Virus record (IMG/VR): IMGVR_UViG_3300021137_000083
Span: 1 to 26,272 of that record
DNA length: 26,272 bases
DNA from: a virus
Reading direction: 5' to 3' (one strand)
Shown: piece by piece, positions 336 to 23,790 of the stretch
Layout of the letters: each line of letters begins with the position of its first letter
Numbering within the stretch: the stretch's first letter is position 1
Translations under genes and position numbers: made by a program
The notes under the pieces: generated by a model
The model's input: the letters and a program-made list of their open reading frames with translations, nothing else
Told to the model about the DNA's origin: nothing
The model's database searches: none

Positions 336-362
336 GCGTAAAATAATGACTTTATGTATTGT
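336..362. other. dif-like sequence, candidate Xer-type att site
   Basis: The core reads ATAATG (343-348), three bases, then TTATGT (352-357). Bacterial dif sites have ATAATG, four bases, then TTATGT, with 11-base XerC and XerD arms around a 6-base centre. Here the right arm (352-362) keeps the six inner XerD-arm bases. The left arm (336-346) keeps only the inner ATAA, and the centre is 5 bases, one shorter than usual. The window also encodes a tyrosine recombinase with a Xer-like C-terminus at 22984-23790. The match is partial, so this is a candidate only. Confidence 0.25.
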
Positions 363-375
363 GACTAAGATCACA
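360..375. promoter_or_regulatory. CRP/GlxR-type operator palindrome
   Basis: TGTGA (360-364), six bases, TCACA (371-375) is a perfect match to both half-sites recognised by CRP-family regulators, including the actinobacterial homologue GlxR. The centre (about 367.5) lies roughly 58-60 bases before the start expected from the -10 element at 414-419. This is close to the position of class I CRP activator sites. The site match is seen; binding and activation are inferred. Confidence 0.5.
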
Positions 376-412
376 CACCTCAAGGCGGGACAAAAGGCAA
401 ATTTCCCACCTT

Positions 413-420
413 ATACAATA
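413..420 (+). promoter_or_regulatory. Probable late promoter -10 element
   Basis: TACAAT at 414-419, within ATACAATA (413-420), fits a sigma-70/SigA -10 box. No convincing -35 TTGAC lies 16-18 bases upstream, which would suit an activator-dependent promoter. The predicted start is about base 426, at the foot of the first hairpin of the leader. The same eight bases recur before the glycosyltransferase gene (17759-17766). Confidence 0.45.
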
Positions 421-424
421 TAGA

Positions 425-608
425 GGGGTTTGTGAGGCGCAGTGGCAAACCCCGACAGTACGGACGCTTCCAGCGTCCTTCCGATGGCCGAAGGTTCTAC
501 CGAAGGCCAGCGCTCCGGGCGTAGCCCTTCGCTTTAAGGGTTGGCGGCGTTACACGCCACCCATAGGTTATTTCCCAATGGGAACCATAGGCACCGCCCC
601 AAGGGCGG
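425..608 (+). ncRNA. Hairpin-array leader: candidate structured RNA or packaging-site element
   Basis: About seven successive small stem-loops fill this stretch. (1) GGGGTTTG 425-432 with CAAACCCC 446-453. (2) GGACGCT 462-468 with AGCGTCC 472-478, loop TCC. (3) GGCC 486-489 with GGCC 505-508, enclosing a symmetric GAA/GAA internal loop and a GGT/ACC stem with loop TCT. (4) GGGC 517-520 with GCCC 524-527, loop GTA, or alternatively CCCTT 525-529 with AAGGG 536-540. (5) GGCGT 546-550 with ACGCC 554-558, loop TAC. (6) TTCCC 572-576 with GGGAA 580-584, loop AAT. (7) CCGCCC 594-599 with GGGCGG 603-608, loop CAA. Most loops are exactly three bases and every stem sequence differs, so these are not copies of one repeat. 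The array starts at the predicted transcription start and stops 10 bases before the terminase ribosome-binding site. It may be a stabilising 5' leader, a packaging signal, or a separate RNA placed like the phi29 packaging RNA. Confidence 0.5.
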
Positions 609-634
609 CGCAGAATTTAAGGTGGGTGAATTGT

Positions 635-2536
635 ATGGCTAAGCCATCGGCTAATAAATACAAGATCGCACCAGATAGCAAAGTGCCTGCTCCGCAGGCC
701 AAGCAAACGATCTTAGAAATGATCACCAAAGGCTATTCCATCGCGGACGCAGTCCGCGCGACTGGAAAGTCAATTAAGTCCTACGAGTACTATCGCGCCT
801 CTGACGCTCAGTTTAAAGAGGCGGTGGACTTAGCTCGGGCAGTCCAGCGCCGAGATGGGGTTATCAGCGAAGAGGATGCTTCGATCAGCTTCGAGGATTT
901 TCGAGCCAAGTACCTCAACTCCAAGACCTTTGATCATCAACGTAACATTATCTCGATGCTTGAAGAGGGTAAGCCTGCTTGGATTCACCCAAGCATGCGG
1001 TACGAAGAGGGCTTTCCAAATTACGTGCTGGTGAACATGCCACCGGAACATGCCAAGTCCATGACGGTCAGCATTGACTACATCACCTATCGGATCTGTA
1101 TCGATCCGAACATCCGTATCAAGATCGTGTCTAAGACCTTGACCATGGCGAAGGACTTTCTTTACGCGGTGAAGCAGCGGCTTACTCAGCCCGCTTACGC
1201 GGAACTTCAGCGGCGTTATGCCCCAGCGGATGGCTACAAAGAAGCATCGGACAAGTGGACGCAGGATGCGATCTACCTTGAACGCGACTCGGGCGAAAAA
1301 GACCCTACCCTGCAAGCCTTGGGTATCGGCGGCCAGATTTACGGTGCTCGCGCAGACTTGATCGTTCTTGATGACTGCGTGACCTTGTCTAACTCAAATG
1401 AGTATGAGAAGCAGATCCGATGGATCCAGCAGGAAGTGCTTACCCGTGTCGGTCCAACGGGAAAGATTTTAGTTGTCGGTACCCGCGTAGATCCTATTGA
1501 TCTATATCGCGAGATGCGTAACCCTGATCGCTATCCAGATGGCAAGTCCCCTTGGACATATCTGGCTATGCCAGCGGTTCTTGACTTTGCCGATGATCCA
1601 AAGGACTGGAAAACCCTCTGGCCCCGCTCAGACAAGCCTTGGCTTGGAGATGACGCGAATATAGGCGAGGACGGATTGTACCCACGCTGGGACGGTCCTA
1701 ACCTTCGTAAGCGTCGCGGTGTGCTTGACCCAAAGACTTGGGCGATGGTTTATCAACAGCAGGATGTGGACAGTGAAGCTGTCTTTGCACCCGAGGCTGT
1801 TCGCGGTTCGGTGTCAGGCATGAGAGCCATTGGCCCTCTTAGCCCCGGCTCTCCCGGTCATCCAAAGACCTTGGGTGGCAATTACACCATCTGCTCAATG
1901 GACCCAGCCATGTCGGGCGATACGTTCTCGATTGCCTATGCTGGCGATATTACAACTCAAAAGCGTTATGTCCTAGAGGCAAGTCGTATGCCCGCTCCTA
2001 CGCCACAGCGTATTCGCGAGCTGATCTTTGAGTGGACTGAGAAGTACAAGCCATCAGTTTGGGTTATTGAGAAGAACGCATTTCAATTGTTCTTGACAAT
2101 GGACGAAGAGATTAACCGCTACCTTGCTTCACGCGGTATTCGTTTGGTTCAGCACTATACCGGTGCCAACAAGATGGATGCAGAATTTGGCGTAGCCTCA
2201 ATGGCTCCGCTATTTGGAACAATTGACAAGCTCGGCAGCCACATGGGTAACAACCTTATTGACTTGCCACGCAGCGACAATGAAGGCGTTAAGTCGCTCA
2301 TCGAGCAATTGATCACTTGGTCCGCTGGTACCAAAAATAAGCAGGATGGTTGCATGGCGCTCTGGTTTGCAGAAACTCAGATGCGCGATTACATCAACCA
2401 GTCAGGAGCCTATGGCGGCTCCTTTATTAAAAACCCATTCCAAACACGCGATCAAATATCGCGTCGTAGGGTTATCAACATTGAAGACTATCAACGCGAA
2501 AAAGAAAAATTAGCGGCTAACGGGGGTTACCTATAG
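635..2536 (+). CDS. terL: Terminase large subunit with N-terminal helix-turn-helix
   Basis: The 633-residue DNA-packaging motor cuts concatemers and pumps DNA through the portal. ATPase motifs are visible: a variant Walker A (PPEHAKS, about residues 136-142), Walker B (LIVLDD, 242-247) and a coupling-type GTR (282-284). The C-terminal RNase H-like nuclease shows an acidic triad in DPAMSGD (D423), VIEKNA (E479) and KQDGC (D571). Residues 26-70 form a separate helix-turn-helix (KGYSIADAVRATGKS) of the kind found in small terminase subunits, and no separate terS is seen in the window. I chose the ATG at 635 because AAGGTGG (619-625) sits 9 bases upstream. A longer in-frame start at 578 lies in the loop of a leader hairpin and lacks a ribosome-binding site. 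The stop overlaps the portal start by one base (TAGTG). Terminase identity is near certain; the terS-fusion reading is inference. Confidence 0.95.
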   Translation: MAKPSANKYKIAPDSKVPAPQAKQTILEMITKGYSIADAVRATGKSIKSYEYYRASDAQFKEAVDLARAVQRRDGVISEEDASISFEDFRAKYLNSKTFDHQRNIISMLEEGKPAWIHPSMRYEEGFPNYVLVNMPPEHAKSMTVSIDYITYRICIDPNIRIKIVSKTLTMAKDFLYAVKQRLTQPAYAELQRRYAPADGYKEASDKWTQDAIYLERDSGEKDPTLQALGIGGQIYGARADLIVLDDCVTLSNSNEYEKQIRWIQQEVLTRVGPTGKILVVGTRVDPIDLYREMRNPDRYPDGKSPWTYLAMPAVLDFADDPKDWKTLWPRSDKPWLGDDANIGEDGLYPRWDGPNLRKRRGVLDPKTWAMVYQQQDVDSEAVFAPEAVRGSVSGMRAIGPLSPGSPGHPKTLGGNYTICSMDPAMSGDTFSIAYAGDITTQKRYVLEASRMPAPTPQRIRELIFEWTEKYKPSVWVIEKNAFQLFLTMDEEINRYLASRGIRLVQHYTGANKMDAEFGVASMAPLFGTIDKLGSHMGNNLIDLPRSDNEGVKSLIEQLITWSAGTKNKQDGCMALWFAETQMRDYINQSGAYGGSFIKNPFQTRDQISRRRVINIEDYQREKEKLAANGGYL

Positions 2537-16199: not shown

Positions 16200-16200
<1 letters not shown>
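15856..16200 (+). CDS. Beta-sandwich tail/baseplate-associated protein
   Basis: 114 residues with a GTG start. AGGAG (15845-15849) lies 6 bases upstream and overlaps the previous stop. The pattern matches the small Ig-like proteins often found beside phage fibres: [12 protein letters not shown], then [11 protein letters not shown], then [23 protein letters not shown] and a final strand. Such domains resemble the N-terminal part of BppU-type baseplate proteins and may attach the collagen-like fibre encoded directly downstream. The two genes share a TAATG junction, which implies matched amounts. Family by pattern. Confidence 0.75.
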
Positions 16201-17756
<1,556 letters not shown>

Positions 17757-17759
<3 letters not shown>

Positions 17760-17773: not shown

Positions 17774-18838
17774 ATGAAGATTGCCGTTTACGCTATTGCG
17801 CTAAATGAAATTCTCCATGCCGAAAGGTGGGCAAAGGCCGCCGAAGGCGCTGATTACCGGATAGTAGCAGATACAGGATCAACCGATGGCACACAAGAAA
17901 AGCTACGCGAACTGGGTGTTACTGTTCACGATATTAGTGTTAGGCCTTGGCGTTTTGATGTGGCGCGGAACGCGTCTCTTGCGCTCATACCAGCGGACGT
18001 AGATGTTTGTGTTTTTGTGGATATGGACGAAGTTATCCACAAGAACTTTTTTAAGGAACTGCGCAAGCAGTGGGATCCAACGGCACAGGCTGGCTGGGTA
18101 ACATTTGATACTGGCAGCAAATGGCAGAAAGATAAGATCCATTCCCGCCATGGGTGGTACTGGAAATATCCAATTCACGAAGTAGCCATTTACTATGGCG
18201 AAGGAACGCCAAAGTATTGCACTATTAATAACGCGATCATCAGCCACAAGCCAGATGAAAACAAATCTCGCGGGCAGTATCTGCCCATGCTTGAGATGTG
18301 TGTTAAAGAGTTTCCAACAGATCCACGTGCGTGGACTTATATGGTTCGCGAGTATTACTTTTACCGTCGCTGGGAAGATGTACTTACCGCAGCCAACGCT
18401 CGCATGGAACTTGGCGGATGGAATGTTGAAGAGGCTGCCACCTGTCGGTGGGCAGCAGAAGCTGCGCATTATCTTGGCAAAGCCGAAGAGTCAACCAAAT
18501 GGGTTGATCGCGGAGTGCAGATCCTTCCTACTGAGGGTGAGCCTTGGTTCTCAGTAGCCCTAGATGCTTATCGCAACAAACGTTGGCAGCAATGCTTAGA
18601 TGCTTCTATCAAAGCCATCGAGTGTCCGCGTAGCGTTCATCATTGTTATGACGCTTCTGTTTGGAACTGGAAAGCCTACGATCTGGCAAGCATCGCCTCG
18701 TGGGAACTAGGTTTTATAGATGAAGCAATTACCTTTGCCGTTGCCGCTAGCAAAGCCAATGGCGAAGAAAATGATCGAGTCTTACGCAATTTGAAATTCT
18801 TTAGACAAGCCAAGGAGAAACATGGCACTCGGAGATAA
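17774..18838 (+). CDS. Family 2 glycosyltransferase with TPR-like C-terminus
   Basis: 354 residues. The N-terminal GT-A domain shows VADTGSTDGT (31-40), WRFDVARNASL (59-69), a DxD-type VDMDEV (82-87) that should bind the metal and nucleotide-sugar, and PIHEV (133-137). This is the arrangement of the GT2/SunS-like family. The C-terminal half has helical pairs rich in W, Y and A (about 190-345), resembling TPR repeats used to hold protein substrates. Sugar and acceptor cannot be read. The adjacent Thr-rich collagen fibre is an attractive protein substrate, while host or virion surface glycans are alternatives. It ends inside the next gene (17-base overlap). Confidence 0.85.
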   Translation: MKIAVYAIALNEILHAERWAKAAEGADYRIVADTGSTDGTQEKLRELGVTVHDISVRPWRFDVARNASLALIPADVDVCVFVDMDEVIHKNFFKELRKQWDPTAQAGWVTFDTGSKWQKDKIHSRHGWYWKYPIHEVAIYYGEGTPKYCTINNAIISHKPDENKSRGQYLPMLEMCVKEFPTDPRAWTYMVREYYFYRRWEDVLTAANARMELGGWNVEEAATCRWAAEAAHYLGKAEESTKWVDRGVQILPTEGEPWFSVALDAYRNKRWQQCLDASIKAIECPRSVHHCYDASVWNWKAYDLASIASWELGFIDEAITFAVAASKANGEENDRVLRNLKFFRQAKEKHGTRR

Positions 18839-22924: not shown

Positions 22925-22965
22925 TTGCCACATGGCAATAGCTATCATTAGCTTTATATGTGGCA
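22925..22965. promoter_or_regulatory. Palindromic control or att region before the recombinase
   Basis: TTGCCA-CA-TGGCAA (22925-22938) is a perfect palindrome. It overlaps the 8-base palindrome ATAGCTAT (22938-22945). TGCCACAT (22926-22933) can also pair with ATGTGGCA (22958-22965), an alternative fold. The gap between the tail gene and recombinase (22896-22983) is unusual in this compact block. It may hold an operator for the recombinase or its crossover site. Confidence 0.4.
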
Positions 22966-22983
22966 TTGGGGTGGGGTATGTCC

Positions 22984-23790
22984 ATGGACGATATTGATCT
23001 TGTTTCAATGGACGAGATATACCGCCAGCTCAAAAACCGGTATGACTCATCGGGCTTTAGCCCTTATGTCATAAGGACAGACTGGCAGATCATACGCCGG
23101 ATCGGCGTACATCCTGCATTGGCCAAGCGAGAAGATTTAGAGAAAATTGTGTTGGCTGCTACCAAGCAGTCCACCAAGGCCAACTATGTTTCTCGCTTGC
23201 GCTCAATCTATAAACATCTTAATAAACTTGATCTGATCAATGGCAATAATCCATCAATGGATTTACCGGACGTAAAAGCCGGTAGGGGCGTTCCTAAGCC
23301 TGTTACCAAGGCTGAGTATGCCAAGTTGCTGGCAGAGGCTCAGCAGCCCTATAGGGACTGGTTTATCCTAGGCGGAATGGCAGGCCTGCGGGCCATGGAA
23401 GCAGCCAAAATTCGTGGCGCTGATCTTGTTGATACAGATGAAGGCCCAATGCTGAACGTCATAGGCAAAGGCAATACCGATCTTGTTATACCCATCAGCC
23501 CTGTAGTGGCTGACATGATTAAATCACATAACACTTTGGACAGGCTTTGGCAGATTGACCCCAATGGCTTTTCTAAAAAAGCGGCCAATGAGATGCGTCG
23601 CATCCTTGGCCCAGAGGCTAAGCATTTCCATAGCTTGAGGCATTACTTTGCCACCACAATGCTTGAAAAGAGCGGTGGCGATTTGATCGCCGTTAAAGAA
23701 CTTATGCGACATTCAAGTGTCGCAACCACGCAGGTATATACACAATTGGCTCACGGGCGTACAAGAACGTTGGTGAACCTCTTAACATAA
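22984..23790 (+). CDS. Tyrosine recombinase, Xer-like integrase
   Basis: 268 residues. An N-terminal SAM-like DNA-binding helical domain (about 50-90) is followed by a complete catalytic core: R136 (AGLRAMEAAKI), K162 (VIGKGNTD), H216 and R219 (HSLRHYF), H243 and nucleophile Y252 (HSSVATTQVYTQL). The spacing of H-STTQ-Y resembles XerC/XerD. Either it integrates the phage or resolves multimers, probably reversibly. I chose the ATG at 22984 because the G-rich stretch at 22968-22976 lies 7 bases upstream; a GTG at 22960 lies inside an inverted repeat. No excisionase or repressor is visible in the window. It sits in the middle of tail genes, which is unusual. Confidence 0.9.
   Translation: MDDIDLVSMDEIYRQLKNRYDSSGFSPYVIRTDWQIIRRIGVHPALAKREDLEKIVLAATKQSTKANYVSRLRSIYKHLNKLDLINGNNPSMDLPDVKAGRGVPKPVTKAEYAKLLAEAQQPYRDWFILGGMAGLRAMEAAKIRGADLVDTDEGPMLNVIGKGNTDLVIPISPVVADMIKSHNTLDRLWQIDPNGFSKKAANEMRRILGPEAKHFHSLRHYFATTMLEKSGGDLIAVKELMRHSSVATTQVYTQLAHGRTRTLVNLLT

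Follow-up and report, generated by a model that had tools for sequence, protein, structure and literature searches.

A hairpin array ahead of the terminase gene of a lake phage is probably a structured RNA leader conserved in shape

The window considered here is the whole of a virus record, 26,272 bases long, with matches to phage head and packaging families. Its terL gene encodes a T7-type terminase large subunit (the phrog_38 match spans nearly the full length of TerL) and the portal gene follows. The start of terL is the ATG at 635; a mechanical ORF caller puts it at 578, within the array described here. That array consists of seven adjacent hairpins (425-611; Table 1) between a conserved late promoter, from which the transcription start is predicted, and the terL ribosome-binding site. 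A sequence-only reading of this DNA had noted about seven stem-loops with distinct stems, at least five of them with triloops, filling the interval from where transcription should begin to just before that site. This description holds. Six of the seven hairpins have 3-base loops and each stem has a sequence of its own; the -10 box at 414-419 predicts a start where hairpin 1 begins, and 7 bases separate the end of hairpin 7 from the ribosome-binding site AAGGTGGGTGA. Two hairpins within the start of terL (685-699 and 742-758) were left out of the array because most relatives do not keep them. Elsewhere in the window there is a gene of the tyrosine integrase family (22960-23790; PF00589, E 1.2e-15), located downstream among late-region genes and outside any obvious lysogeny module. 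Translation alone points to a collagen-like Gly-X-Y repeat protein (16200-17759) and, after it, an ORF (17774-18838) that is possibly glycosyltransferase-like.

Table 1. Positions of the late promoter elements, leader hairpins and terL in the window, and of the second RNA in relatives.
Feature	Position	Strand	Sequence or structure	Fold or match
CRP/GlxR-like palindrome	360..375	not assigned	TGTGACTAAGATCACA; late promoter region	
Imperfect GC-rich inverted repeat	382..412	not assigned	AAGGCGGGA...TCCCACCTT; between CRP-like box and -10	read directly
Putative -10 box	414..419	+	TACAAT (TATACAATATAG); late promoter	
Hairpin 1	425..453	+	5'-terminal, GGGGTTTGT/GCAAACCCC, 9 bp, large loop	-14.3 kcal/mol, z -2.72
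Hairpin 2	462..478	+	GGACGCT-TCC-AGCGTCC, 7 bp, triloop UCC	z -4.77
Hairpin 3	486..508	+	GGCC-gaa-GGT-TCT-ACC-gaa-GGCC, two-tier, 4+3 bp, triloop UCU	z -2.50
Hairpin 4	517..527	+	GGGC-GTA-GCCC, 4 bp, triloop GUA, weak	z -1.87
Hairpin 5	543..561	+	GG-c-GGCGT-TAC-ACGCC-a-CC, 2+5 bp, triloop UAC, C.A mismatch	z -2.85
Hairpin 6	~566..586	+	core 572-584 TTCCC-AAT-GGGAA, 5 bp, triloop AAU	z 0.10 alone
Hairpin 7	591..611	+	GC-a-CCGCCC-CAA-GGGCGG-c-GC, 2+6 bp, triloop CAA	-14.1 kcal/mol, z -3.02
terL ribosome-binding site	619..629	+	AAGGTGGGTGA; AAGGYGGGTG kept among close relatives	read directly
terL, T7-type terminase large subunit	635..2536	+		phrog_38 E 3e-65; T7-type DNA maturase B 4bij E 2e-5
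Three-way-junction RNA	L033-L080, e.g. L048:2815-2890, L041:2734-2808		directly after late promoter	

The promoter has a recognizable plan. The TGTGA-N6-TCACA palindrome is the sole exact copy in the window (0.02 expected), and 49 of 63 relatives have a CRP-like box no more than 400 bases ahead of terL, compared with 0 of 63 control stretches taken from inside terL. The CRP/GlxR-like box is conserved across lake and Streptomyces phages alike, which suggests control of the late promoter by a host regulator of the CRP family. The inverted repeat downstream of the box occurs in the promoters of most lake-phage relatives, many of them with the form GCGGGATAAA...TTTATCCCGC, and is a possible operator. 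Most relatives have TATAYAATATAG or GTATATATAGGGG upstream of the leader, and the clade conserves a TATA element along with the CRP-like box. A -35 element was sought for the late promoter without a match. The promoter sequence CCCACCTTA (405-413) is the exact reverse complement of the ribosome-site sequence TAAGGTGGG (618-626), about 200 bases away. Perhaps this is chance, as a close relative (L005) does not keep the pair.

How unusual is the array? Triloop hairpins with a stem of at least 4 bp number six in the window leader where shuffles lead one to expect 0.97 (P 0.0005). Perfect triloop hairpins with at least 5 bp number four, against 0.26 in dinucleotide shuffles, and none of 2000 shuffles reaches four. 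Hairpin 6 by itself gains nothing over shuffles. The sequence-only reading had proposed a comparison of folding energy with shuffled controls, and the energy is indeed lower: -81.3 kcal/mol against -68.8 +/- 4.5 kcal/mol (z -2.76), with 1 of 200 shuffles as low. However, the leader (z -2.84 in this comparison) is not extreme among 184-nt tiles across the window, for which the mean z is -0.85 (sd 1.17) and many values come near -3. Its raw folding energy is the lowest of all tiled stretches. In other words, the total folding of the leader is only moderately unusual, and the number of hairpins is what stands out. In a scan of perfect-hairpin density the leader did not stand apart, as coding regions have chance hairpins too.

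The array was compared across 80 loci of TerL relatives from the IMG/VR virus collection. On the window's side, 27 non-redundant leaders contain 48 triloop hairpins (6.6 expected) and 29 tetraloop hairpins (6.9 expected). The nearest annotated phages are the Streptomyces cluster BF podoviruses (Beephvirinae), whose TerL is ~44-45% identical. Their late leaders share with the window a promoter plan with a CRP-like box, a wealth of hairpins, a similar length and a homologous terL. However, the hairpins are different ones, and the loops are mostly of 4 or 5 bases rather than 3 (38 hairpins with 4-base loops on the Streptomyces side against 7.9 expected, and 46 with 5-base loops against 5.4). No description of the cluster BF leader hairpins as a named element was found in the literature covered.

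Closer to the window, six of seven relatives have a terL that is 79-83% identical and a leader that is 42-51% identical, and the hairpins are still present. The seventh, L005, is 96% identical in terL and 88% in the leader. Among 9 sequences every one of the seven pairs of hairpin 2 has changed on both sides, with a covariation of 0.817 compared with 0.285 +/- 0.067 in shuffles, and in hairpin 3 four of seven pairs have done so, with 0.571 compared with 0.165; 0 of 500 shuffles did as well in either case, although the two alignments (A3 and A4) were built by structure and are biased towards it. The plan of hairpin 3 recurs in each relative used: a lower stem, an internal loop or bulge, a short upper stem and a triloop. 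Covariation against related terL leaders was another check proposed at the outset, and it came out on the side of structure, with hairpins kept and compensatory changes in hairpins 2 and 3. These comparisons show that it is the leader hairpins rather than their sequences that selection preserves.

Does the array work as RNA or as DNA? Conserved U.G and C.A pairs sit inside hairpins 5 and 6. In hairpin 5 the C.A mismatch is present in six of six sequences, with an apical pair that is either U-A or C-G. At the site of hairpin 6 the relatives have GGTTATTTC-CATA-GGGATTACC, in which one pair is seen as A-U, G.U and G-C. The retained C.A of hairpin 5 and the A-U/G.U/G-C series of hairpin 6 fit selection on RNA. 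On the transcribed strand each of the 54 non-redundant leaders has a better fold than the mean of its own shuffles, and the same is true of nearly all of them on the complementary strand. Single stem mismatches across leaders show no bias towards G.U over A.C (36 against 41), in a test dominated by chance hairpins. Since the minus strand also folds well and G.U is not favored, action at the RNA level is probable, short of proof. The leader is probably a genuine structured RNA of which the shape is kept and the sequence is not.

The same observations keep an alternative alive. Near-perfect stems that fold well on either strand, with G.U not favored over A.C, could be palindromes that act as DNA, whether as a pac/cos-like or protein-binding element near a genome end or through quasi-palindrome correction during replication. 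The leader of the Streptomyces relatives indeed lies a short way in from the left terminal repeat. However, the hairpins are sited after a promoter, and the conserved C.A and U.G pairs and the series in hairpin 6 suit RNA better. The genome ends also speak against it. In the Streptomyces phage Dennebes the terminal repeat is 254 bp, the leader runs from near 400 and terL from 636, and published terminal repeats of FlowerPower and its relatives are 253 bp (PMC9753666). As the Dennebes repeat ends at 254, it does not reach the leader, and both promoter and leader come after the genome end. A DNA role of this kind is improbable, and the earlier suggestion of a pac/cos signal finds no support in the terminal repeat of the Streptomyces relatives, which stops before promoter and leader. 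A separate observation is that two loci from different metagenomes (L013 and L014) both begin 771 bases upstream of terL, one with a 99-base end repeat; this shared start may be a genome end or an assembly overlap.

If the leader is RNA, what does it do? The reading that we favor, to which we give about an even chance, is that the region is the structured 5' untranslated region of the late mRNA and that its job is most likely to protect or regulate this transcript. A long mRNA of the late, structural genes would be transcribed from the CRP/GlxR-box promoter at ~360-425. It would have a strong hairpin at or beside its 5' end and then one small hairpin after another, most of them with triloops, so that little unpaired RNA would be left ahead of the terL ribosome-binding site. 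Such a leader could guard the polycistronic transcript against host nucleases in 5'-end-dependent decay and would be presented as a compact structure upstream of terL. In E. coli, stabilization of mRNA by a 5'-terminal stem-loop is an established effect (a reference given in PMC2777011). With a stable hairpin no more than a few bases from the predicted 5' end, the leader has one of the features expected of an mRNA 5'-stabilizing leader, and the 5'-terminal position of hairpin 1 agrees with what hairpins there are known to do for mRNA stability. Like hairpins of the ompA type, it offers a stable hairpin at or near the 5' end and upstream of a ribosome-binding site; unlike them, it has seven hairpins in series, mostly with triloops, in a phage late leader. 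Some observations count against this reading. The complementary strand folds well too, the leader does not consistently alter access to the ribosome-binding site (see below), and a 5'-terminal stem of at least 6 bp is present in only part of the relatives (9 of 27), although this is well above the 0.56 expected. Nevertheless, the RNase-protecting leader appears to be the best surviving idea of the sequence-only reading.

That reading had also stated that the array matches no described element, and this is borne out in that no Rfam family covers the leader. A search of Rfam with the leader and 10 relatives gave nothing convincing save a match elsewhere in one relative, a sequence resembling a type II hammerhead ribozyme (L029:1468-1525, minus strand; 35 bits, gathering threshold 37) with the GAAAC, GUC and CUGAUGA core present. 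It is on the opposite strand from terL, ~1.5 kb ahead of that gene. The leader is thus undescribed in the RNA library searched, and its most likely function is ordinary in kind.

Perhaps the leader is instead bound by a phage protein, which would thereby control the timing of late expression or its own translation; terminase, portal or a regulator could be that protein. Hairpin 1 has the loop GTGAGGCGCAGTGG, which looks like the GTGAGGCACAGAGG that Dennebes has at the corresponding site, a similarity judged by eye between phages whose TerL is ~45% identical, and the UCC loop of hairpin 2 is found again on different stems in relatives. However, the loops of the other hairpins are not conserved and there is no conserved masking of the ribosome-binding site; leader folding had no consistent effect on its masking or exposure (Wilcoxon P 0.40). 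We regard a protein site as quite unlikely. The idea of a packaging RNA like that of phi29, also raised by the sequence-only reading, fares worse and is highly improbable. What commends it is a structured RNA adjoining terL in the neighborhood of packaging genes, as for phi29 (Rfam Phage_pRNA), together with an RNA in relatives that forms a three-way junction with loop pairing (see below). However, pRNA accompanies ATPases that have lost nuclease activity (PMC7672431), whereas the TerL of the window is full-length and T7-type by profile match and a small terminase is annotated in Dennebes. The leader is also an array of separate hairpins, and the Rfam pRNA model gave no match at E values up to 5 in positions 1-2600 of the window or up to 1 in 10 relatives.

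The RNA just mentioned was uncovered in more distant relatives, those with a TerL ~74-77% identical. At ~+20 to +75 after the late promoter, these have a conserved 55-nt pseudoknotted three-way-junction RNA. Its parts are a P1 stem (CCGTTCG/CGAACGG), a hairpin (GGCTC/GAGCC), an AGCGA segment and a loop pairing, e.g., GGCA with TGCC. Covariation is 0.095 compared with 0.060 +/- 0.010 in shuffles (0 of 500 as high), and nine pairs have changes on both sides. Rfam had no match for it in the search of 10 relatives. Among virus contigs, pattern matches with the full motif follow the late promoter wherever there is enough upstream sequence, and the rest look like chance. In bacterial genomes the pattern gave 83 matches, about the number expected for its length; filtering by downstream motif or promoter-like context left four, none resembling the phage element. 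A covariance-model search gave no convincing match in the Streptomyces-side loci searched and none in the window. It is therefore a neighboring finding, separate from the element of the window.

Both RNAs sit where an RNA acting on RNA polymerase might be placed. In the put elements of HK022, the structure of the nascent leader modifies polymerase, and a similar mechanism would let the late block be read through without terminating. putL is ~70 nt, has two stem-loops and is just downstream of its own promoter (PMC9378689). On the predicted transcript the leader likewise is a structured RNA just past a phage promoter, and a long transcript begins with it. All Dennebes genes between terL and ~27.7 kb share one strand after the promoter, so that the leader there heads a block of up to ~27 kb. 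The covarying, pseudoknotted RNA of the relatives at ~+20 to +75 also fits. However, the window is without this conserved three-way junction, nothing put-like was noticed in the leader sequence, and arrays of triloops are not a feature of put. By its description put is set apart from the leader, as the operon is late rather than early, the structure is different, and in place of two stem-loops of conserved sequence within ~70 nt there are seven hairpins that share no sequence. Over its first 20 kb the window has 22 intrinsic terminators where 21.7 are expected, which is chance level and gives no direct support for a need for antitermination. A put-like action is on this evidence unlikely. A T7-like RNA polymerase (PF00940) was sought in 13 records without a match; control genomes gave none either, so the negative is uninformative. 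A broader proposal, which we regard as tentative and on the unlikely side, is that the leaders belong to an undescribed class of late-operon RNA in actinophage-like podoviruses, with a triloop array in the group of the window and a three-way junction in its sister group, and that this class turns on the late block through the transcribing polymerase or through a phage protein.

The three-way-junction RNA, with its covariation, is a concrete candidate for a new RNA family. For the array itself, function is open to experiment since culturable Streptomyces relatives share the promoter plan and a hairpin-rich leader. If the leader is confirmed as RNA, a large and environmentally common clade of phages would protect or control its late mRNA by means of an RNA structure new to the library searched.
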